From: Glutamicibacter mishrai
GTDB taxonomy: Bacteria > Actinomycetota > Actinomycetes > Actinomycetales > Micrococcaceae
Assembly (NCBI RefSeq): GCF_012221945.1
Contig: NZ_CP032549.1
Span: forward strand, 3,286,001 to 3,350,000
Direction: 5' to 3'
Length of the DNA stretch: 64,000 bases
In this document: piece by piece, positions 34,835-45,046 of the stretch
Numbering within the stretch: the first letter of the stretch is position 1
Layout: every line of letters begins with the position of its first letter
Notes under the pieces: model-generated
Seen by the model: only the letters and a program-made list of their open reading frames with translations
Database searches by the model: none
Told to the model about the DNA's origin: nothing
Translations under genes and position numbers: made by a program

Positions 34835-34965
34835 CGCACTTAACGGCCTATTCCGGGCTAGATGTGTAAACCATGGGAATCGCTGGACCCGCTGGAGAGC
34901 ACGAGTCGGTGGCCTCTAGCGTGGAGAATATCCAGCCGGATTTCCCGAGAAACAAGGAGAACGCC

Positions 34966-37065
34966 ATGGCCAATGAACCGAAGCATCCAACTGACCCAGG
35001 GCAGCAGCCGGAATCGGTGCCGGGCCAGGACAGCGAATACCTCACCACCGCGCAGGGCGCACCGGTCAGCGATACCGACCATTCGCTCAAAGCAGGCGAA
35101 CGCGGTCCGACCTTGCTGCAGGACCACCACCTGCGTGAAAAAATCATGCACTTCGACCATGAGCGCATTCCTGAACGCGTGGTCCACGCCCGCGGGGCCG
35201 GGGCCCATGGCCTTTTCACCAGTTACGGCAATGCCGAGGAGCTGACCCGGGCCGACTTCTTGAAGCCCGGACGTACCACCCGCGTTTTCGTGCGTTTCTC
35301 CACCGTGGTCGGTTCCCGCGGCTCGATGGACACGGCCCGCGATACCCGCGGCTTTGCCACGAAATTCTATACCGAAGAAGGCATTTTCGACCTGGTGGGC
35401 AACAACATCCCGGTGTTCTTCATCCAGGACGGCATCAAGTTCCCGGATCTGGTCCATGCCGCGAAGCCGCACCCGGATACCGAGATCCCGCAGGCGCAAT
35501 CGGCCCACGATACCTTCTGGGATTTCGTCTCCCTGCATACCCCTGCCCAGGCCCACGTGATGTGGCAGATGAGCGACCGTGCGATACCCCGCTCGCTGCG
35601 CATGATGGAAGGCTTCGGCGTGCACACCTTCCGCATGGTCAACGAGGCGGGCAAAGCGTCACTGGTGAAGTTCCATTGGAAGCCCAGGCTCGGCGTGCAC
35701 TCGCTGGCCTGGGAAGAGTCGCAGCTGGCCGCCGGCGCGGATCCGGACTTCCACCGCCGCGATCTGGCCGAAGCCATTGATGCCGGAGCCTACCCCGAAT
35801 GGGAACTGGGCGTGCAGATTTTCCCCGACGACGGTTCGGGGGTCTTCGAGGGCATCGACCTGCTGGATCCGACGAAATTCGTGCCAGAAGAACTGGCCCC
35901 GGTCCAGCCGCTGGGCAAGATGGTGCTGGACCGCAACCCGGAGAACTACTTCGCGCAGACTGAACAGGTCGCCTTCCACCCCGGGCATCTGGTTCCGGGC
36001 ATCGATATCAGCGACGACCCGCTGCTGCAGGCGCGGCTCTTCTCCTACCTGGACACCCAGCTGACCCGGTTGGGCGGACCGAACTTCGCGCAGATCCCGA
36101 TCAACTCGCCGGACTCTCCGGTCAACGACATGTTCCGCGACGGCTTCCACCAGCACCGGGTGCCCAAGGGCATCGCGCCGTACAAGCCGAACTCGCTGGA
36201 TGGCGGCTGCCCATACATGGCGCAGGTGGTTTCTGGCCAGCAGCCTCCGCTGGACTTCCCGCAGCCTGTGGCCTCCGGGAAGAAGATGCGTTCCGAGCCG
36301 GCCAGCTTCTCGGACCACTACAGCCAGGCGCGCCTGTTCTACATCAGCCTCTCGGCCGTGGAGCGCGCCCACGTGCAGCAGGCCTACTCCTTTGAACTGG
36401 GCAAGTGCACCGATACCGCGATCCGCCAGCGGCAGGTGGAATGCCTGGCGAAGATCGATACCCAGCTGGCCGCCGGGGTCGCCCAGGCACTGGGCCTGCC
36501 GGCACCGGCCGCAGTGCAGCTGGATGACCCGGTGGCCAGCCCCGCGCTGTCCCAGATCGGAAAAGCCTGGCCAGTGGACGGGCGCAAGGTCGGGGTGGTG
36601 TTCAACAGCGGAAACCACCAGCACGTGCCGGCAATAGCCCAGGCGCTGGCCGAACGGGGCATGTCCCCGCTGCTCGTTTCGGCCTCCGGCGGCGAGGTGG
36701 CCCCGGACCTGCCCATTGACCGCACCTACCTGACGGCGCGCTCCATCGAATTCGATGCGCTGGTGCTCATCGGCCCGTTGCCGCCGGCCCCGGACGCCGC
36801 GGTTGCGCTGGATGCCAAGGCCGGCGCCTTGGGGGCAGGCGGGGTTCCCATCGACCCGCGCGTGGCGTTGCTGGTAGCGGAGGCCTACCGGCACAACAAG
36901 GCCATCATCACCCTGGACGGGCTCTCCGATGGCCTGCTGCAAGCGGTGGGCCTGGAAGATGACGCGCCGGGCATCGCCCTGGTCGAGCTGTCGGCGGTGG
37001 CCGAGAGCGCGGAGCAGCTGCTTTCCACCCACCGCGCGTGGGAGCGCTTCCCGGTCGCCGAGTAG
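34966..37065 (+). CDS. katE: large-subunit catalase (KatE/HPII type)
   Basis: This 699-residue heme catalase splits hydrogen peroxide into water and oxygen. RVVHARGAGAHG holds the distal His (about residue 74). FYTEEGIFDLVGNNIPVFF holds the distal Asn (about 147). RLFSYLDTQLTRLG holds the proximal heme Tyr (about 360). Residues about 540-699 form the DJ-1/class I amidotransferase-like domain found only in large catalases. The frame is open 31 codons upstream to 34873, but AAGGAGA before the ATG at 34966 fixes the start. It heads a run of stress genes (BrkB, PPOX, CsbD). A 16-bp hairpin follows at 37093. Confidence 0.95.
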   Translation: MANEPKHPTDPGQQPESVPGQDSEYLTTAQGAPVSDTDHSLKAGERGPTLLQDHHLREKIMHFDHERIPERVVHARGAGAHGLFTSYGNAEELTRADFLKPGRTTRVFVRFSTVVGSRGSMDTARDTRGFATKFYTEEGIFDLVGNNIPVFFIQDGIKFPDLVHAAKPHPDTEIPQAQSAHDTFWDFVSLHTPAQAHVMWQMSDRAIPRSLRMMEGFGVHTFRMVNEAGKASLVKFHWKPRLGVHSLAWEESQLAAGADPDFHRRDLAEAIDAGAYPEWELGVQIFPDDGSGVFEGIDLLDPTKFVPEELAPVQPLGKMVLDRNPENYFAQTEQVAFHPGHLVPGIDISDDPLLQARLFSYLDTQLTRLGGPNFAQIPINSPDSPVNDMFRDGFHQHRVPKGIAPYKPNSLDGGCPYMAQVVSGQQPPLDFPQPVASGKKMRSEPASFSDHYSQARLFYISLSAVERAHVQQAYSFELGKCTDTAIRQRQVECLAKIDTQLAAGVAQALGLPAPAAVQLDDPVASPALSQIGKAWPVDGRKVGVVFNSGNHQHVPAIAQALAERGMSPLLVSASGGEVAPDLPIDRTYLTARSIEFDALVLIGPLPPAPDAAVALDAKAGALGAGGVPIDPRVALLVAEAYRHNKAIITLDGLSDGLLQAVGLEDDAPGIALVELSAVAESAEQLLSTHRAWERFPVAE

Positions 37066-37197: not shown

Positions 37198-38328
37198 ATG
37201 CCTTCAGGAACCGATAGCAATGACGCGAAAGGGCACGTGGCCGATACCGCTGCCAAAGCCCGGCACGCACCTGGACCGGATGCCGAGTCCAAGCCCGAAT
37301 CCCCGCCGGACATGCACGCGCAGTCGTGGAAATACGCGGCCAAGCGCGCCATCAGCGAATTCTCCCGGAAGAACTGCACGGATATGGCAGCGTCCCTGAC
37401 CTACTTCGCGATGCTCTCCCTATTCCCGGCACTGCTCGCGGTGGTCTCCCTGCTCGGAGTCGCCGGCCAAGCGGAAAACATGACCCGCAACATTCTCTCG
37501 CTGCTTGAGGAACTGGCGAGCCCGGAAGTTGTGGAAACCCTGAGGCAACCCATCGAGCAGCTGGCTTCAGCCCCGTCGGCAGGCCTCGCCCTGTTTGCCG
37601 GCCTGCTCGGTGCGTTGTGGAGCGCCTCCGGGTACGTCGGGGCCTTCGGCCGGGCCATGAACCAGATCTACGAGGTGGCCGAAGGCCGGCCGTTCTACAA
37701 GCTGCGCCCGCTGATGCTGCTGCTGACACTGGTACTTCTTGTTGCGGCCAGCGTGCTGGGGCTGCTGCTGATAGTCTCCGGCCCGCTGGCGCAGGCCATT
37801 GGCGACGTCATGGGGCTCGGCGAGCGCGCAGTGGCGGTCTGGAACATCGCCAAATGGCCGGTGATCGTGCTGTGCGCGATTGTGCTGGTTGCCGTGCTGT
37901 ACTACGGGGCTCCCAATGTGAAGCAGCCGAAGTTCCGCTGGATCAGCCTCGGCTCGGCCATTGCGCTGTTCGTGCTGGCGGTGGCGACCGTGGGCTTCTT
38001 CTTCTACGTTTCGAATTTCGGGAACTACAACAAGACCTACGGCGCTATTGGCGGGGTCATCGTGCTGCTGCTGTGGCTGTGGATTGCCAACCTCGCACTG
38101 CTGTTCGGCGCGGTTTTCGACGCGGAAGCAGAGCGCGGGCGCCAGCTGCAAGCGGGGATTTCCGCCGAGCGCTCGGTGCAGCTCCCGCCACGGGATACCA
38201 AGGCCAGCGTGAAGCAGGAGGAGAAAGAAGAGCAGGACATCAGCGACGGACGGCAATTGCGTTTCGCCAGCGAGTTGCGCGCCGAAGAGCGACCGGATCC
38301 TCAGTCCAGGCGGAACCCGGACAGCTGA
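37198..38328 (+). CDS. YihY/BrkB family membrane protein
   Basis: This 376-residue protein has six predicted membrane helices from about residue 65. Family marks are DMAASLTYFAMLSLFPALLAVVS at the start and GAIGGVIVLLLWLWIANLALLFGAVFDAE near residue 300. The cytoplasmic N-terminus (about 40 residues) and C-terminus are charged. The family was once called ribonuclease BN in error; its true role is unknown. GAGGAGAG lies just before the ATG. It sits between katE and a PPOX gene, which fits a stress-related set. Confidence 0.88.
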   Translation: MPSGTDSNDAKGHVADTAAKARHAPGPDAESKPESPPDMHAQSWKYAAKRAISEFSRKNCTDMAASLTYFAMLSLFPALLAVVSLLGVAGQAENMTRNILSLLEELASPEVVETLRQPIEQLASAPSAGLALFAGLLGALWSASGYVGAFGRAMNQIYEVAEGRPFYKLRPLMLLLTLVLLVAASVLGLLLIVSGPLAQAIGDVMGLGERAVAVWNIAKWPVIVLCAIVLVAVLYYGAPNVKQPKFRWISLGSAIALFVLAVATVGFFFYVSNFGNYNKTYGAIGGVIVLLLWLWIANLALLFGAVFDAEAERGRQLQAGISAERSVQLPPRDTKASVKQEEKEEQDISDGRQLRFASELRAEERPDPQSRRNPDS

Positions 38329-38430: not shown

Positions 38431-38907
38431 ATGGCCAGCGAAGAGGCAAGCAAGGTTATCGACATCATCAAGGATCTGCGGATCGCCATGGTCACAACCC
38501 ACAGCGCTGGACGGTTGGCCAGCCGCCCCTTGGCGCTGGTTGAAGCCACCGACCAGGGGGAGCTCTGGTTCTTCTCCGCCGCCGACGCGGGGATTGTCCA
38601 GGAAATCCGCGCTCAGGGGCTGGTCAATGCCGCGTTCAGCGGATCCAAGCAGTGGGTGTCGGTCAGCGGGCACGCCGAGGTGGTGCTCGACGTCGCTAAG
38701 AAGAAGGAACTGTGGAACGCCGCTGTAGAGACCTTCGCCGGCGAAGGTCCGGAATCCGCGCAGACAGTGCTGCTGCGCATCAATGCAGTCTCCGCCGAAT
38801 ACTGGGAGAACCCCGGCGGGGCGGCAAGCCTGGTGGCCGGTTGGGTCAAGCAGAAGCTCACCGGAAAGCCGGCGGAGCCCGGCGAATCGAACAGCGTCGA
38901 ACTGTAG
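38431..38907 (+). CDS. PPOX-fold general stress protein
   Basis: This 158-residue protein has the pyridoxamine-5-phosphate-oxidase split-barrel fold of the general stress protein 26 group. IAMVTTHSAGRLASRPLALV near residue 16, LWFFSAADAGIVQEI and WVSVSGHAEVVLD are typical. It probably binds a flavin or F420 cofactor; members respond to oxidative and nitrosative stress. AAAGGAG lies before the ATG. A terminator hairpin follows at 38921-38970. Confidence 0.88.
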   Translation: MASEEASKVIDIIKDLRIAMVTTHSAGRLASRPLALVEATDQGELWFFSAADAGIVQEIRAQGLVNAAFSGSKQWVSVSGHAEVVLDVAKKKELWNAAVETFAGEGPESAQTVLLRINAVSAEYWENPGGAASLVAGWVKQKLTGKPAEPGESNSVEL

Positions 38908-39036: not shown

Positions 39037-39228
39037 TTAGGACAGGTCGTCCTTGACATCCTTGGCGGCGTCTTTGACGTGTTCGCCTGCCTGCTTGGCC
39101 TTGGCAGCGGCCTGGTCCTTCACGCCTTCGGCCTGCAGCTGCTCATTGTTGGTGGCATCGCCGATGGTTTCCTTGGCCTTGCCAGATGCTTCCTGGGCCT
39201 TGTTCTGGATCTTGTCTCCAATTCCCAT
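39037..39228 (-). CDS. CsbD-family stress protein
   Basis: This 63-residue, highly charged, Ala/Lys-rich protein starts MGIGDKIQNKAQEASGKAKE and matches the CsbD family throughout. CsbD proteins are strongly induced by general stress (SigB in Bacillus); their biochemical role is unknown. A clear AGGAGG lies before the ATG. It is convergent with the PPOX gene, which supports a stress island here. Confidence 0.92.
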   Translation of the reverse strand: MGIGDKIQNKAQEASGKAKETIGDATNNEQLQAEGVKDQAAAKAKQAGEHVKDAAKDVKDDLS

Positions 39229-39609: not shown

Positions 39610-40671
39610 ATGGACCAGAAGCCTGTGACGTTCAGTACGGGCGAACCACGATTTGCAACCCGCAATGGCGAGCCGTGGTGGGGTGCCGAGCAAGCGGTGC
39701 GTGATGCCGCCGTGCGCTGCGAGGGCAACCCGGAAGCGATGCTGCGCGTGCTGGAAGGCTCCGGGGAGGATCCTCCGGTCCCTGCCGCTGGCCAGACGCA
39801 GCGGCTCTGGGAGCTGCTGGCGTCCGTGGCCGCCACCGACCTGGTTGCGGCCAGGACGCTGGAACCGCATTTGGATGCAGCCGGAATCCTTAGCCAGGCG
39901 GGCATGCCGTGGCAAGCAGGCACCTCCTGGGGCGTTTTCGCCGCGCAGTCGCCCACCACCGCTCTGGAAGCTGTCCGCGAGTCCGGCGGAGGCTGGGTGC
40001 TGAACGGCACCAAGCCCTGGTGCTCCTTGGCCGCCGCGCTGACGCATGCATTGGTCACCGCCCGAACACCGGAGGGGAACCGGTTGTTCATGGTTTCCCT
40101 CCGCCACCCCGGCGTTGAACCGGCAACAGGTGGCTGGATCAGCCGAGGAATGGCCCAGCTGCCCAGCGGTTCCGTGGACTTCACGGGAGTGCCGAGCCAA
40201 CCGGTGCAAGACGCTGGCTGGTACCTGTCCCGCCCGGGGTTCGCGGTTGGCGGCGTCGGTGTTGCCGCCTGCTGGTTCGGGGGAGCGGTGGGAATCTACC
40301 GTCATCTGCAGCGCAGCGCCCAAGCGCGTACCCCGGATCAGCTGGCCCTCGCCTGGCTCGGCGAAGCTGACCGCTTGCTGGCCGGCTCCGCCGCGCTGTT
40401 GGAACATGCCGCCCGGCTGGCGGATGCCGGAGAATTGGATGCCATTGCCGCCTATCGGATCCGCGGCCAGGTGGCCTGGGCATGCAACCGCATCTTGCAG
40501 CTCAGCGGCGAGTCCACCGGACCGGGACCGCTAACCGCCGATGAGGAGCATGCGCGGCGCGCAGCAGACCTGGGCATCTATCTTCGCCAGCATCACGCTG
40601 CCCGCGATGACGCGGCCCTGGGCCAGCTGCTTGCCGACCGCGCCGGCCGGGAAGGCGGGAGCGCATGGTGA
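39610..40671 (+). CDS. acyl-CoA-dehydrogenase-fold flavoprotein
   Basis: This 353-residue protein has the acyl-CoA dehydrogenase fold: a helical N-domain, a beta domain with GTSWGVFAAQSPTTALEAV and GGWVLNGTKPWCSLAAALTHAL (FAD-binding, about 115-150), and a helical C-domain. The usual catalytic glutamate motif is not visible; the C-terminus instead reads YLRQHHAARDDAALGQLL. This ending resembles flavin monooxygenases and N-oxygenases of the same fold. So it may oxygenate a substrate rather than dehydrogenate an acyl-CoA. The stop overlaps the next gene's start by seven bases, so the pair is translationally coupled. Confidence 0.75.
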   Translation: MDQKPVTFSTGEPRFATRNGEPWWGAEQAVRDAAVRCEGNPEAMLRVLEGSGEDPPVPAAGQTQRLWELLASVAATDLVAARTLEPHLDAAGILSQAGMPWQAGTSWGVFAAQSPTTALEAVRESGGGWVLNGTKPWCSLAAALTHALVTARTPEGNRLFMVSLRHPGVEPATGGWISRGMAQLPSGSVDFTGVPSQPVQDAGWYLSRPGFAVGGVGVAACWFGGAVGIYRHLQRSAQARTPDQLALAWLGEADRLLAGSAALLEHAARLADAGELDAIAAYRIRGQVAWACNRILQLSGESTGPGPLTADEEHARRAADLGIYLRQHHAARDDAALGQLLADRAGREGGSAW

Positions 40672-42035
40672 ATTTCACGCATCAGGACCAGGGAACATCT
40701 GCAAGCTGCTGGCAGCAGGCTGGGCTTGGGCGAATCGCAGCATTGGATCCGGAGAAGCTTTTCCACGCACTCTCATCGGTAATCGTCCTGGCCGCCCACC
40801 CGGATGACGAGACGCTGGGCGCCGGAGGACTGATCCGCATGGCGCTATGCCGGGGGATCGACGTCCACGTGATTGTCTGCAGCTTCGGTGAAGCATCGCA
40901 CCCGCACTCCGCAACGCACACCGCCGCCCAGCTGGCCTCGCTGCGCAAGGCGGAGCTGGACGAGGCGATGAGCACGCTGCGCGTACAGGGACCGCAGGCC
41001 GGGACGCTGCACCTGCACTGCCTGGGGTTGGGCGACGGGAAACTTGAAACTCAGCAAGCACGGATCCGCGCGGCCCTAAAGCAGCACGCCAGCCGAGACT
41101 GCCTGATCGCCAGCACCTACCGCGCCGACGGGCACCCGGACCACGAAATCCTGTCCCTTATCGCCGCTGACTGCGCCCTGGCGCGCGATGCATGCCACCT
41201 GGAATTCCCCATCTGGTTCTGGCATTGGGGGCATCCGGACAGCCAGCGCAGCTGGAAGCACTGGCACCGGTTGGACCTGGATGAATCCAGCGCGCAGGCC
41301 AAGGCCCGCGCCCTGGACGCCCACCGTTCCCAAACCCGGCCGCTGTCCGCACTGCCAGGAGACGAAGTCATCCTTAGCGAAGCCTTCCTGCAGCATTTTT
41401 CCCGCGGTGCCGAGATCTTCCGCGCCACCTGGCCTGGCCACAAGGATGCAGAGTCGGCTCCGGCGGTGTTCGACGAGCTCTACGGGCAGCGCGAGGATCC
41501 GTGGGAATACCGCAGCAGCCGCTATGAGCGGCGCAAGCAGCAGATCCTGCTCGCCTCCCTGCCCCAGGAACGGTACTCGGCGGTGCTGGAGCTGGGCTGC
41601 TCCATCGGAGTGCAGAGCGCCGAACTGGCCCGCCGCAGCACGCGCCTGCTGGCGGTCGACGCCAGCGCCACCGCATTGGCCCAAGCAAGGCGTGCCGTGG
41701 CAGGAATGGACCACGTCGACTTGCTGCAGGCCACGGTGCCCCGACAATTTCCGCAGCTGGAGCCGGGCAGCTTGCAACTGGTGGTGCTCAGCGAGATGGG
41801 CTACTTCCTAGCAGCCGACGAACTGGAGCAGGTGCTCGCCGCCAGCGCGGCCGCACTCCATGCCGGCGGCGAGCTGGTGCTCTGCCATTGGCTGCATCCC
41901 ATTGAAGGCTGGCCGCTGGACGGGGAAGAAGTGCACCGCATGGCGGGCCAGCTGGGGTGGGAGCGCATCGTGGAGCATCGCGAAGCCGATTTCCTGCTTG
42001 AAATACTGCGCAAGCCAGCTGGTGCCCGTGGGTAG
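40665..42035 (+). CDS. PIG-L deacetylase fused to NodS-like methyltransferase
   Basis: This 456-residue protein has two enzymes. Residues about 35-240 are a PIG-L (LmbE) deacetylase: VIVLAAHPDDETLGAGGLI (zinc-binding AHPDDE) and TYRADGHPDHE (HPDH). Residues about 265-450 are a SAM-dependent methyltransferase: VLELGCSIGVQSAELARR (motif I, about 310) and LLAVDASATALAQARR. The surrounding FDELYGQREDPWEYRSS..YE is the NodS-type pattern. PIG-L enzymes remove N-acetyl groups from GlcNAc derivatives. NodS N-methylates a deacetylated chitooligosaccharide in rhizobia. A combined deacetylation and N-methylation of an amino sugar is therefore plausible. It is coupled to both neighbours. Confidence 0.85.
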   Translation: MVNFTHQDQGTSASCWQQAGLGRIAALDPEKLFHALSSVIVLAAHPDDETLGAGGLIRMALCRGIDVHVIVCSFGEASHPHSATHTAAQLASLRKAELDEAMSTLRVQGPQAGTLHLHCLGLGDGKLETQQARIRAALKQHASRDCLIASTYRADGHPDHEILSLIAADCALARDACHLEFPIWFWHWGHPDSQRSWKHWHRLDLDESSAQAKARALDAHRSQTRPLSALPGDEVILSEAFLQHFSRGAEIFRATWPGHKDAESAPAVFDELYGQREDPWEYRSSRYERRKQQILLASLPQERYSAVLELGCSIGVQSAELARRSTRLLAVDASATALAQARRAVAGMDHVDLLQATVPRQFPQLEPGSLQLVVLSEMGYFLAADELEQVLAASAAALHAGGELVLCHWLHPIEGWPLDGEEVHRMAGQLGWERIVEHREADFLLEILRKPAGARG

Positions 42036-42762
42036 GCAGCTGGCGGCCATGGCGGTGATCATCCCGGCCCGCGACGAGGAAGAACGCCTGGGCCGTTGCC
42101 TGGATTCGGTGCGCGCGGCCATGGACCGTCTTGCCCATGCCCGCCCGCAGATCCAGGCCAGGGCCATCGTGGTTGCCGACAGCTGTACGGACGGTACAGC
42201 GCAGATCGCCGGGAGGCATGCCAGCGAGGATTGGCGGATCAGCGTGCAGCAGGTCGGCTTCGGCAATGTCGGTGCGAGCCGTGCCGCAGGAGCACGCCAT
42301 GCCCTTGGCCTCCTCGCAGCGGCCGGCGACCCGGGCGCCATCTGGCTGGCCAGCACCGACGCGGATACCTGCGTCCCCGAGCATTGGCTTCAGGGCTTTG
42401 CCCGCCTGCATAGCCGCGGGGCAGATGCGGTAGCGGGAACCGTGGAACCGGACCGCAGCGAACTCGAAGAGCACATCTTCGCCCTCTGGCAGCAGGAATA
42501 CCAGCCGGTGGAGGGGCATGGCCATATCCATGGCGCGAACTTCGGCGTGTGCGCCGCTGCCTATCTGGCTGTCGGAGGCTTCGAGCCGCTGGCGGCCCGG
42601 GAGGATGTGGCACTGGTGGAAGCCTTGCGCCATGCCGGCTACCGGGTCCAGGCCACGGCCCGGCTGCAGGCAACCACCTCTGGGCGCTTGCGCGGCCGGC
42701 TGGACGAAGGCTTCGCGGACTATCTGGCGGCGCTGGATCACCGGATGCTCAACACCGGCTAG
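42022..42762 (+). CDS. GT2 glycosyltransferase
   Basis: This protein of about 246 residues has AVIIPARDEEERLGRCLDSV at its start, VVADSCTDGTAQIAG (about residue 55), LASTDADTCVPEHWL (DxD-like, about 115) and a C-terminal GFEPLAAREDVALVEALR that fits the ED acceptor motif. It is short and soluble-looking, with no membrane helices. Candidate starts are GTG 42022, GTG 42028 and ATG 42049; the first two overlap the upstream gene. It is likely to transfer a sugar to the product of the deacetylase/methyltransferase, or to make its substrate. A terminator follows at 42797. Confidence 0.82.
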   Translation: MPVGRQLAAMAVIIPARDEEERLGRCLDSVRAAMDRLAHARPQIQARAIVVADSCTDGTAQIAGRHASEDWRISVQQVGFGNVGASRAAGARHALGLLAAAGDPGAIWLASTDADTCVPEHWLQGFARLHSRGADAVAGTVEPDRSELEEHIFALWQQEYQPVEGHGHIHGANFGVCAAAYLAVGGFEPLAAREDVALVEALRHAGYRVQATARLQATTSGRLRGRLDEGFADYLAALDHRMLNTG

Positions 42763-43618: not shown

Positions 43619-45046
43619 TCAGGTGCGCGCAAGCTCGCGCAGTGCCCGATGCGCCGCATGCCAGCCGGCCATGCCATGCACCCCGCCGCCAGGCGGCGTG
43701 GAAGAGGAGCACAGGTACAGTCCCGGAACGCCGAGGGAATACGGATTGAGCGAAGCGGAGGGGCGGAAGAATTGCTGGGTGCCGGACAGCGATCCGCCGC
43801 CGATATCGCCGCCGACCAGGTTGGGATCCCAGGCCTGCAGCTGCGCCGGGGAAGTGTCCACCCGCTGCACGATCCGGTCCCTGAAGCCCGGCGCGAACCG
43901 CTCGATCTGCGCATCGATGAGCGCACCGGCATCCCCGGCATAGCCCTGGGGCACGTGGGCGTAGGACCAGATGACGTGGCGGCCGGCCGGGGCGCGCGAG
44001 GCATCGACGCTCGAAGGCTGGACCACCATAACGAAGGGGCGGTCGGGCATTTTCCCGGAGGCGACCTGGTGCTCGGCAGCGGCCAGCTCGGCGGCATCGC
44101 CGATCACATGCACCGTGCCAGCCCGCGCGGTGCGCGCATCCTGCCAGGGGATCGGGCCATCGAGCAGGTAGTCCACCTTGAAGGCAGCGGTGCCGTAGCG
44201 CCAGCGTTCGAACCGGCGGCGCAGGCGTGGCGGAAGCTGACCGCCGGCGATCTGCACCACCTGGCGGGGCGTGGTATCCAGGAAAGTGAGTTCGGCATCG
44301 GGAAGCTGGGCGAGGCTGGTGATCTGGTGCCCGGTGTGGATCTGCACCCTGAGCCCATCGAGCACCCGCAGCAGCGCGTCGATAATGCTGCCGGTGCCGC
44401 CGCGCGCCACCGGCCACCCCCAGGACTGGCCCAGGGACCCGAAAAGCACGCCGAATCCCGAGGTGAACGGGTGGGCGAGCGGCAGCATGGAATGCGCGCT
44501 GGAGCCGGCGAAGAGCGCCGCGGCCTGCCGGGTGCGGAAGGCCGCGGTGGCCAAGAGCTTCGCCGGCGGCAGCGAGCGCAGCCCGAAGCGCGCCATCAGC
44601 ACCGGATGCGGCGGGATGCCCAGCAGCGGGCTGGTGGCGTTCTCCAGGATCGCCTGCGGATGGCGCACCAGCGGCCCATGCAGCAGCCGCCAGATCTTCC
44701 GGTCGGCGGGGAACTGCCTGCTGGTGGCGTCCATGCTCTGGTGCAGGAAGACCGAGGGGCCGTCGTCCAGCGGGTGGGCCAGCGGGTAATCGTGGAAATC
44801 CCATTGCAGGCCATGGCCGGCCAGGTCGAAATGCGCGAATGCCGGGCTGCCATAGGCGAAGGGGTGGGCGGCAGCTCCCAAATCCACAATGGTGCCCTCG
44901 CCCAGCGTGCTGCCGGAAGCCGCGGCGCCGCCCGGATGGGCATTGCGCTCGAAGACCTGGACATCGAAACCATTCTGCGCAAGCACCGCCGCGGCGACCA
45001 GCCCATTGGGGCCGGCCCCGACGACATTCGCCTTCCCATTGCTCAT
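43619..45046 (-). CDS. phytoene-dehydrogenase-like FAD oxidoreductase
   Basis: This 475-residue flavoprotein has the dinucleotide-binding NVVGAGPNGLVAAAVLAQNG at its start, then NAHPGGAAAS and GAAAHPFAYGSPAF. A C-terminal GLYLCSSSTPPGGGVHGMAG closes the FAD site. The family includes carotenoid desaturases and PYROXD2-like proteins. No carotenoid genes are nearby, so a different substrate is likely. Its ATG overlaps the preceding gene's TGA (ATGA), so translation is coupled. It is the last gene of the leftward operon. Confidence 0.87.
   Translation of the reverse strand: MSNGKANVVGAGPNGLVAAAVLAQNGFDVQVFERNAHPGGAAASGSTLGEGTIVDLGAAAHPFAYGSPAFAHFDLAGHGLQWDFHDYPLAHPLDDGPSVFLHQSMDATSRQFPADRKIWRLLHGPLVRHPQAILENATSPLLGIPPHPVLMARFGLRSLPPAKLLATAAFRTRQAAALFAGSSAHSMLPLAHPFTSGFGVLFGSLGQSWGWPVARGGTGSIIDALLRVLDGLRVQIHTGHQITSLAQLPDAELTFLDTTPRQVVQIAGGQLPPRLRRRFERWRYGTAAFKVDYLLDGPIPWQDARTARAGTVHVIGDAAELAAAEHQVASGKMPDRPFVMVVQPSSVDASRAPAGRHVIWSYAHVPQGYAGDAGALIDAQIERFAPGFRDRIVQRVDTSPAQLQAWDPNLVGGDIGGGSLSGTQQFFRPSASLNPYSLGVPGLYLCSSSTPPGGGVHGMAGWHAAHRALRELART

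Follow-up and report, generated by a model that had tools for sequence, protein, structure and literature searches.

A widespread four-enzyme cassette in Glutamicibacter mishrai and its putative role in making an N-methylated amino-sugar glycoside

Background

What could a soil bacterium make with a flavoprotein of the acyl-CoA dehydrogenase (ACAD) superfamily, a deacetylase joined to a methyltransferase and a glycosyltransferase, when the genes for all of them overlap? The question is raised by three open reading frames, named here A, B and C, on the + strand of a 64,000-nucleotide stretch of the Glutamicibacter mishrai genome (contig NZ_CP032549.1, positions 3,286,001 to 3,350,000), which is called the window throughout and gives the coordinates used below. 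All three frames were confirmed: A (39610..40671) encodes 353 amino acids and B (40665..42035) 456, while C ends at 42762 and has 246 amino acids if read from the GTG at 42022 (42022..42762). The host genome measures 3.57 Mb in one contig and its closest relatives are Glutamicibacter, among them P0001 (92% identity) and L004 of G. nicotianae (88%).

Judged from sequence, the unit is one copy, in this genome, of a four-enzyme biosynthetic cassette that is widespread in bacteria. That this cassette belongs to a stress regulon and makes a de-N-acetylated, N-methylated and flavin-oxidised amino-sugar glycoside is a reading to which we give an even chance.

Results and discussion

The four parts of the cassette stay together

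A first-pass annotation of the window had taken the three genes for one translationally coupled unit, with overlaps of seven and about fourteen bases. The first overlap is present, as an ATGGTGA in which the stop of A and the start of B are interlocked (40665..40671, + strand), and it recurs in relatives: among 80 loci the stop of A lies in ATGGTGA in 35, in another 7-base start/stop overlap in 28, in a 4-base ATGA or GTGA in 12 and in some other arrangement in 5. The second is likely but not proven, because C has three possible starts: the GTG at 42022, on which the 14-base overlap with the stop of B (42033-42035) depends, a GTG at 42028 that would give 8 bases, and an ATG at 42049 that would give none.

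The 80 loci are the best of 219 found in Actinomycetota with a 14-row profile of B, and in every one A, C and the two halves of B are adjacent. All four parts were also adjacent in 20 of 20 chosen genome windows, a figure that is not a frequency because the windows were selected among the genomes with a match, namely 66 of the 296 covered by a class-wide search with the B profile (E 1e-30). In some of these the match fell in one frame, in others the deacetylase and the methyltransferase matched separately. When 30 short loci from the class-wide search were kept, A was close by in 23. The seven without A in the stretch examined weigh against a strict linkage: one (L101) is truncated where its contig stops, and the other six (L106-L110 and L113, from six actinobacterial genomes) are PIG-L matches with neither A, a methyltransferase nor C within 1.5 kb on either side. 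Three of these six genomes have a methyltransferase match on another contig.

In three of the 80 loci (L018, L039 and L059, from Micrococcus and Citricoccus) B and C form a single frame, and Pfam finds PIG-L, methyltransferase and GT2 domains in the L059 protein; P0067 (772 amino acids) and P0091 (712 amino acids) are triple fusions of the same kind.

The first-pass annotation had placed the unit in the setting of a non-symbiotic actinobacterium, which is too narrow, as copies of the cassette occur in several phyla. When plasmid records were searched at the protein level, 79 had a match, and from these 26 loci were picked by eye for their spread; two further loci were left out, L132 with a different trifunctional protein and L192 with a PIG-L gene lacking the rest. 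All four parts occur in 20 of the 26, from alpha-, beta- and gammaproteobacteria, Nostoc and Kitasatospora, and the deacetylase and the methyltransferase are two genes in these plasmid loci, where annotated. The six incomplete loci speak against constancy: by profile, L118, L124 and L128 hold A, deacetylase and methyltransferase, L126 holds A, methyltransferase and glycosyltransferase, and L185 and L186 hold methyltransferase and glycosyltransferase. In L126, however, a PIG-L gene that the profile missed is annotated beside the neighbouring catalase gene. The co-occurrence search that the first-pass annotation had called for thus found the four domains together in 80 of 80 actinobacterial and 20 of 26 plasmid loci. 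Chance neighbourhood is rejected because the four-part linkage holds in far relatives.

The three Deinococcus plasmid loci are all incomplete, and two of them have further peculiarities. In D. wulumuqiensis (L118:2158-4527) and D. radiodurans (L124:181-2517) A carries some 400 extra residues at its N-terminus, which by eye look like a glycoside-hydrolase barrel; a Pfam scan of the L118 protein gave no match at 1e-3 for this part. In D. radiodurans (L124:3237-5849) the cassette is interrupted between deacetylase and methyltransferase by an oppositely oriented gene for a DEAD/DEAH helicase.

B joins a deacetylase to a methyltransferase and C is a small glycosyltransferase

B had been described as a deacetylase with AHPDDE and HPDH motifs fused to a NodS-like methyltransferase, and the domain searches bear this out. 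Its PIG-L domain (PF02585; residues 41-169, 40785..41171) scores 78.9 bits against a Pfam cut-off of 28.2, and the second half scores 38.4 against NodS (cut-off 24) and 45.8 against Methyltransf_25 (cut-off 27). The NodS-like stretch covers residues of about 277-405 (41493..41879) according to Pfam, NCBIfam and a structure match, and begins with a DPW motif that is included in the match of the NodS structure 3ofj to residues 276-405. The motifs are HPDD at 45, HPDH at 157, DPW at 278 and ELGCSIG, for S-adenosylmethionine (SAM), at 309. The zinc and SAM motifs, whose loss in a structural model the first-pass annotation had named as evidence against its proposal, are present in the window and in nearly all relatives. 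HPDD[EV] is kept in 80/80 actinobacterial, 20/20 chosen-window and 21/23 plasmid copies found, HxDH in 80/80, 20/20 and 23/23, and the E/DxGxxxG SAM motif in 80/80 and 20/20 and in 24 of the 26 plasmid loci.

None of the curated equivalog models is reached. The methyltransferase scores 45.5 bits against NCBIfam NodS (cut-off 300), and the scores against MshB, BshB and Mca are 38.5, 38.4 and 18.3 (cut-offs 224, 195 and 277), by which a mycothiol or bacillithiol deacetylase is rejected. In Pfam the deacetylase half matches PIG-L only, not the CE4 type of NodB. The nearest solved relative of B is 4isc, which covers 161 residues of the methyltransferase half (E 4e-35). The host genome has two more PIG-L genes elsewhere, yet the B profile matches it only once at E 1e-30. 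On this sequence evidence B may be an amidohydrolase acting on an amino sugar.

The GT2 enzyme reported to follow B is there: C scores 56.4 bits against Glycos_transf_2 (PF00535; cut-off 23.3), and its AlphaFold2 (AF2) model (pLDDT 96.4) has GT-A fold matches. Its TD[AG]D motif is found in 79/80 actinobacterial, 19/20 chosen-window and 23/23 plasmid copies, whereas QxxRW, the motif of NodC and processive GT2 enzymes, is found in 0 of 24 aligned C rows. C appears to be soluble, and A, B and C of the window have no clear membrane segment, with hydropathy maxima (19 residues) of 1.75, 1.49 and 1.44.

A is an ACAD-fold flavoprotein that probably lacks the dehydrogenase base

The ACAD fold that had been assigned to A stands. 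The protein matches Acyl-CoA_dh_M (PF02770) with 39.2 bits (cut-off 33.3), and its AF2 model (pLDDT 92.9, pTM 0.92) has the fold by its PDB matches. The likeness to the amino-sugar N-oxygenase KijD3, proposed at the same time, holds in part: in the Foldseek search KijD3 is the top match by E-value (3.2e-12) and DnmZ comes at rank 6. In joint alignments made with three MAFFT modes the canonical catalytic Glu of the ACAD family faces Q327 of A, which is invariant in 34 of 34 sequences. A therefore very probably lacks the catalytic Glu of acyl-CoA dehydrogenases, although the position depends on the alignment, and without this base an oxygenase of the TdsC/KijD3 sort is favoured over an acyl-CoA dehydrogenase.

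Other observations count against an oxygenase. By structural Z the isovaleryl-CoA dehydrogenases come first (31.6-31.1), with TdsC practically level (30.9) and KijD3 lower (29.5), and a sequence profile also puts dehydrogenases first (2dvl at 1.5e-10, KijD3 at 5e-6). A gapless count places the ACAD Glu opposite residue 328 of A, with Glu or Asp in 0 of 34 yet Asp in L150, and a global hhalign alignment with a 4-residue gap places it opposite R332, with Glu in 1 of 34. Moreover, acidic residues lie near the expected place (E/D at 331 in 21 of 34, D at 333 in 29 of 34), and the flavin-reductase family FMN_red accounts for only 2 of 120 neighbour proteins in a Pfam tally. This tally covers 120 of 159 neighbour genes and the commonest 25 of 146 families.

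Stress genes often accompany the cassette

The possible link with stress suggested by the first-pass annotation gains support from annotated neighbours and from one expression table. Directly 5' of the unit in the window lie genes for a long catalase of HPII/KatE type (34873..37065, +), a YihY/BrkB-family membrane protein assigned by Pfam (37198..38328, +), a pyridoxamine-oxidase-like protein matching PF16242 in Pfam (38431..38907, +) and, adjoining the unit, a CsbD-like stress protein of 63 amino acids judged by eye from its translation (39037..39228, -).

Elsewhere, neighbours were counted within 5-6 kb at 24 annotated plasmid loci (L121 and L122 carry no annotation, and the gene table of PLSDB has gaps), with catalase, trehalose enzyme, ferritin-like, CsbD/general stress/universal stress, Ku/LigD and photoproduct lyase genes taken as stress genes. 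Such a gene stands beside 15 of the 24 (L114-L117, L119, L120, L123, L126, L127, L129, L184, L185, L187, L188 and L191), with catalase in 7 and trehalose genes in 5. In two Comamonas the order is otsA, A, deacetylase, methyltransferase, glycosyltransferase, otsB, with genes overlapping or nearly touching. In Legionella lytica it is otsB, a GH65 gene, deacetylase, methyltransferase, glycosyltransferase and A, the last annotated as a "hypothetical protein" but matching A (E 1e-68). The cassette adjoins otsBA in Acinetobacter ursingii and treZ in Paracoccus AK26. Among the 80 actinobacterial loci, 44 hold a stress marker (Dps in 30, YihY in 28), a count made without a control set; the Pfam tally, likewise without control, contains SpoIIE and GAF five times each and catalase and ferritin twice each. 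The 80-locus and plasmid counts are biased because the marker seeds were taken from module loci.

Expression gives independent evidence. Table 2 of PMC5660220, an RNA-seq study of Acinetobacter baumannii, marks ACICU_02432-02435 (glycosyltransferase, SAM methyltransferase, LmbE and ACAD) as one operon that is down 31-62-fold, among 33 genes by that paper's count; in the same table otsA and otsB are down 12-50-fold and catalase 22-31-fold. The four genes are tabulated but not discussed in the section that carries the table. This table is the strongest independent support for the stress link.

The link has weaknesses as well. No counted stress gene stands beside 9 of the 24 plasmid loci in the incomplete gene table (L118, L124, L125, L128, L130, L131, L186, L189 and L190), though L128 and L190 have YihY. 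In the chosen actinobacterial windows stress markers occur in 5 of 20, as compared with 1 of 20 control windows taken from 16 of the same genomes, which is a weak link. Finally, the A. baumannii operon is equated with the cassette by gene names and order and by the A. baumannii locus L121, which has the same four parts.

Upstream of A, a SigB-type promoter was found in 0 of 75 loci (mean in shuffles 0.7). Of the 75, 14 carry a GGAA[CT]-N15-19-GTT pattern (mean in mononucleotide shuffles 2.1), which is not counted as evidence because it is mostly in closely related loci. A shared GGAACTTT...CGTT motif lies 79-211 bases before A in the closely related Arthrobacter/Paenarthrobacter loci L023, L026, L032, L033, L037, L045, L046 and L052, and its sequence is reminiscent of a stress promoter of the extracytoplasmic function (ECF) type.

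A proposed pathway and its rivals

In the proposed pathway, C would use a nucleotide sugar as donor and place its N-acetylhexosamine on a small acceptor. The acetyl group would then be taken off by the PIG-L domain, whose HPDD and HxDH motifs would bind the zinc ion, and the NodS-like domain would use SAM to N-methylate the amine so exposed; a direct hand-over between deacetylase and methyltransferase would agree with their fusion. In a last step A may oxidise the amine or the sugar, so that the product made under stress would be a small amino-sugar glycoside, N-methylated and possibly N-oxidised. What carries this pathway is the linkage of the four domains across phyla, the fusions, the intact deacetylase, SAM and glycosyltransferase motifs, the stress neighbours and, from the published table, shared expression in A. 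baumannii. The loss of the base in A, the order of reactions, the donor, the acceptor, the N-oxidation and a function in survival are inferred. An N-deacetylated, N-methylated and perhaps oxidised amino-sugar glycoside was also the product that the first-pass annotation had put forward; the set of predicted enzymes fits it, while product and N-oxidation stay conjectural. It speaks against this pathway that the PIG-L and SAM families act on other substrates too.

Two rival readings concern the acceptor. It may be trehalose or trehalose-6-phosphate, so that part of the trehalose formed under stress would be converted to a modified solute resembling trehalosamine or to an aminoglycosyl-trehalose; we hold this to be unlikely, although the embedding of the cassette among trehalose genes, seen at a minority of loci, makes trehalose a fair candidate. 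The tight run between otsA and otsB in Comamonas, the otsB and GH65 genes at the head of the Legionella run, the genes adjoining the cassette in A. ursingii and Paracoccus AK26 and the joint fall of otsA/otsB with ACICU_02432-02435 in PMC5660220 all favour it. However, the five plasmid loci with trehalose genes nearby include two of one genus, OtsA/OtsB seeds match 1 of 80 actinobacterial loci and 0 of 20 chosen windows, and co-regulation would by itself be enough to produce this pattern. It is also improbable, in our judgement, that the product is an envelope glycan or glycolipid, with C glycosylating a lipid or polymer, B deacetylating and methylating it and A acting on the lipid part. By the titles of the fold matches, the GT2 fold relatives of C include WrtF, RmlT and TarS, which we take to act on wall or surface polymers, and three more glycosyltransferase genes precede the cassette, after a catalase gene, in Novosphingobium (L127:1087-4215) and Sphingobium (L191:120-3200), which suggests a longer saccharide in these two genera. 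A, B and C of the window nevertheless lack a clear membrane segment, though relatives of C reach 2.31 (L105) and 2.0 (L123), and transporters are not constant: MFS_1 is found in 3 of 120 neighbour proteins, with MFS genes beside L115 and L117.

The chemistry itself could differ. A might be a real acyl-CoA or acyl carrier protein (ACP) dehydrogenase with a displaced base, giving an acylated amino sugar, as the first place of dehydrogenases by both Z and profile and the acids near the expected Glu would allow; with Gln at that column in 34 of 34 under all three MAFFT modes, and with acyl-CoA ligase, ACP and thioesterase families all missing from the 25 commonest of the 146 neighbour families, we find this quite unlikely. 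Single cases occur, a thioesterase beside L120 and an acyl-CoA synthetase beside L184. The idea that the PIG-L domain is an Mca-like amidase acting on thiol conjugates in a detoxification or thiol pathway could appeal to the weak matches to the MshB, BshB and Mca models and to the catalase neighbours, which suggest oxidative stress, but those scores are far under the curated cut-offs and the annotations of the 24 plasmid loci show no gene of the MshC or BshC type, so that we regard it as very improbable indeed.

If the amino-sugar glycoside pathway is right, its implications reach beyond Glutamicibacter. The composition kept across phyla, the several fusions and the common fall with trehalose and catalase genes indicate one shared metabolite, and we consider it possible, though doubtful, that this is a standard stress-response solute of many unrelated bacteria, zwitterionic, N-methylated, possibly N-oxidised and perhaps based on trehalose. 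Such a solute, shared by soil Actinomycetota, Acinetobacter, Comamonas, Bradyrhizobium and others, would be a stress metabolite of a new kind. To identify the metabolite would close a gap in the understanding of general stress physiology (desiccation, oxidation, starvation) and assign functions to four families that now go only by the names acyl-CoA dehydrogenase, PIG-L deacetylase, methyltransferase and glycosyltransferase. In agreement with the first-pass annotation, which knew of no product, searches of an open-access library yielded no paper assigning one (subscription papers lay outside the search), nor any paper besides PMC5660220 listing the four genes together. The passages seen of PMC6599016, PMC10325922, PMC12029717, PMC11348943 and PMC5731063 do not describe the cassette, and of 28 papers containing the name of TMG-chitotriomycin, a known N-methylated amino-sugar product, none of the 20 whose titles were listed has its biosynthesis as topic.

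Two other genes of the window, both on the - strand, are worth recording. A flavin adenine dinucleotide (FAD) oxidoreductase adjoining the unit (43619-45046) resembles the CrtO/phytoene-desaturase group but stays under the cut-offs of those models, and a stand-alone formiminotransferase-cyclodeaminase domain protein (PF04961; 46165-46800) lies beside uncharacterised genes.

Comparison with known systems

The succession of a GT2 enzyme, an N-deacetylase and a NodS-like methyltransferase recalls NodC, NodB and NodS. The kinship with Nod factor backbone synthesis drawn by the first-pass annotation is nevertheless one of logic, not of membership, and the Nod enzymes are analogues. NodB is a deacetylase of the CE4 type, whereas that of the cassette is PIG-L; the methyltransferase lies far under the NodS equivalog cut-off; the GT2 enzyme is small, soluble and without QxxRW; and a flavoprotein is added. 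On these grounds a Nod-factor pathway proper is rejected.

MshB and BshB carry HPDD/HxDH motifs and share the PIG-L family with B, which nonetheless falls far below their NCBIfam equivalog cut-offs. The structure 4isc, a chain of 164 residues, presumably from Pseudomonas syringae, has no deacetylase and is named only "Methyltransferase"; it is probably the same enzyme as the methyltransferase half of B in split form. A shares its fold with the amino-sugar N-oxygenases KijD3 and DnmZ, and with the flavin monooxygenases TdsC and DszC, whose substrate is dibenzothiophene, it has 17-20% identity. In Sulfitobacter (L132:2444-5524) the same three activities, glycosyltransferase, SAM methyltransferase and polysaccharide deacetylase, are annotated on one chain of about 1026 amino acids. 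It differs from the cassette in the polysaccharide type of its annotated deacetylase and in having no ACAD gene beside it and, judged by annotation, it is possibly a parallel solution to the same chemistry.

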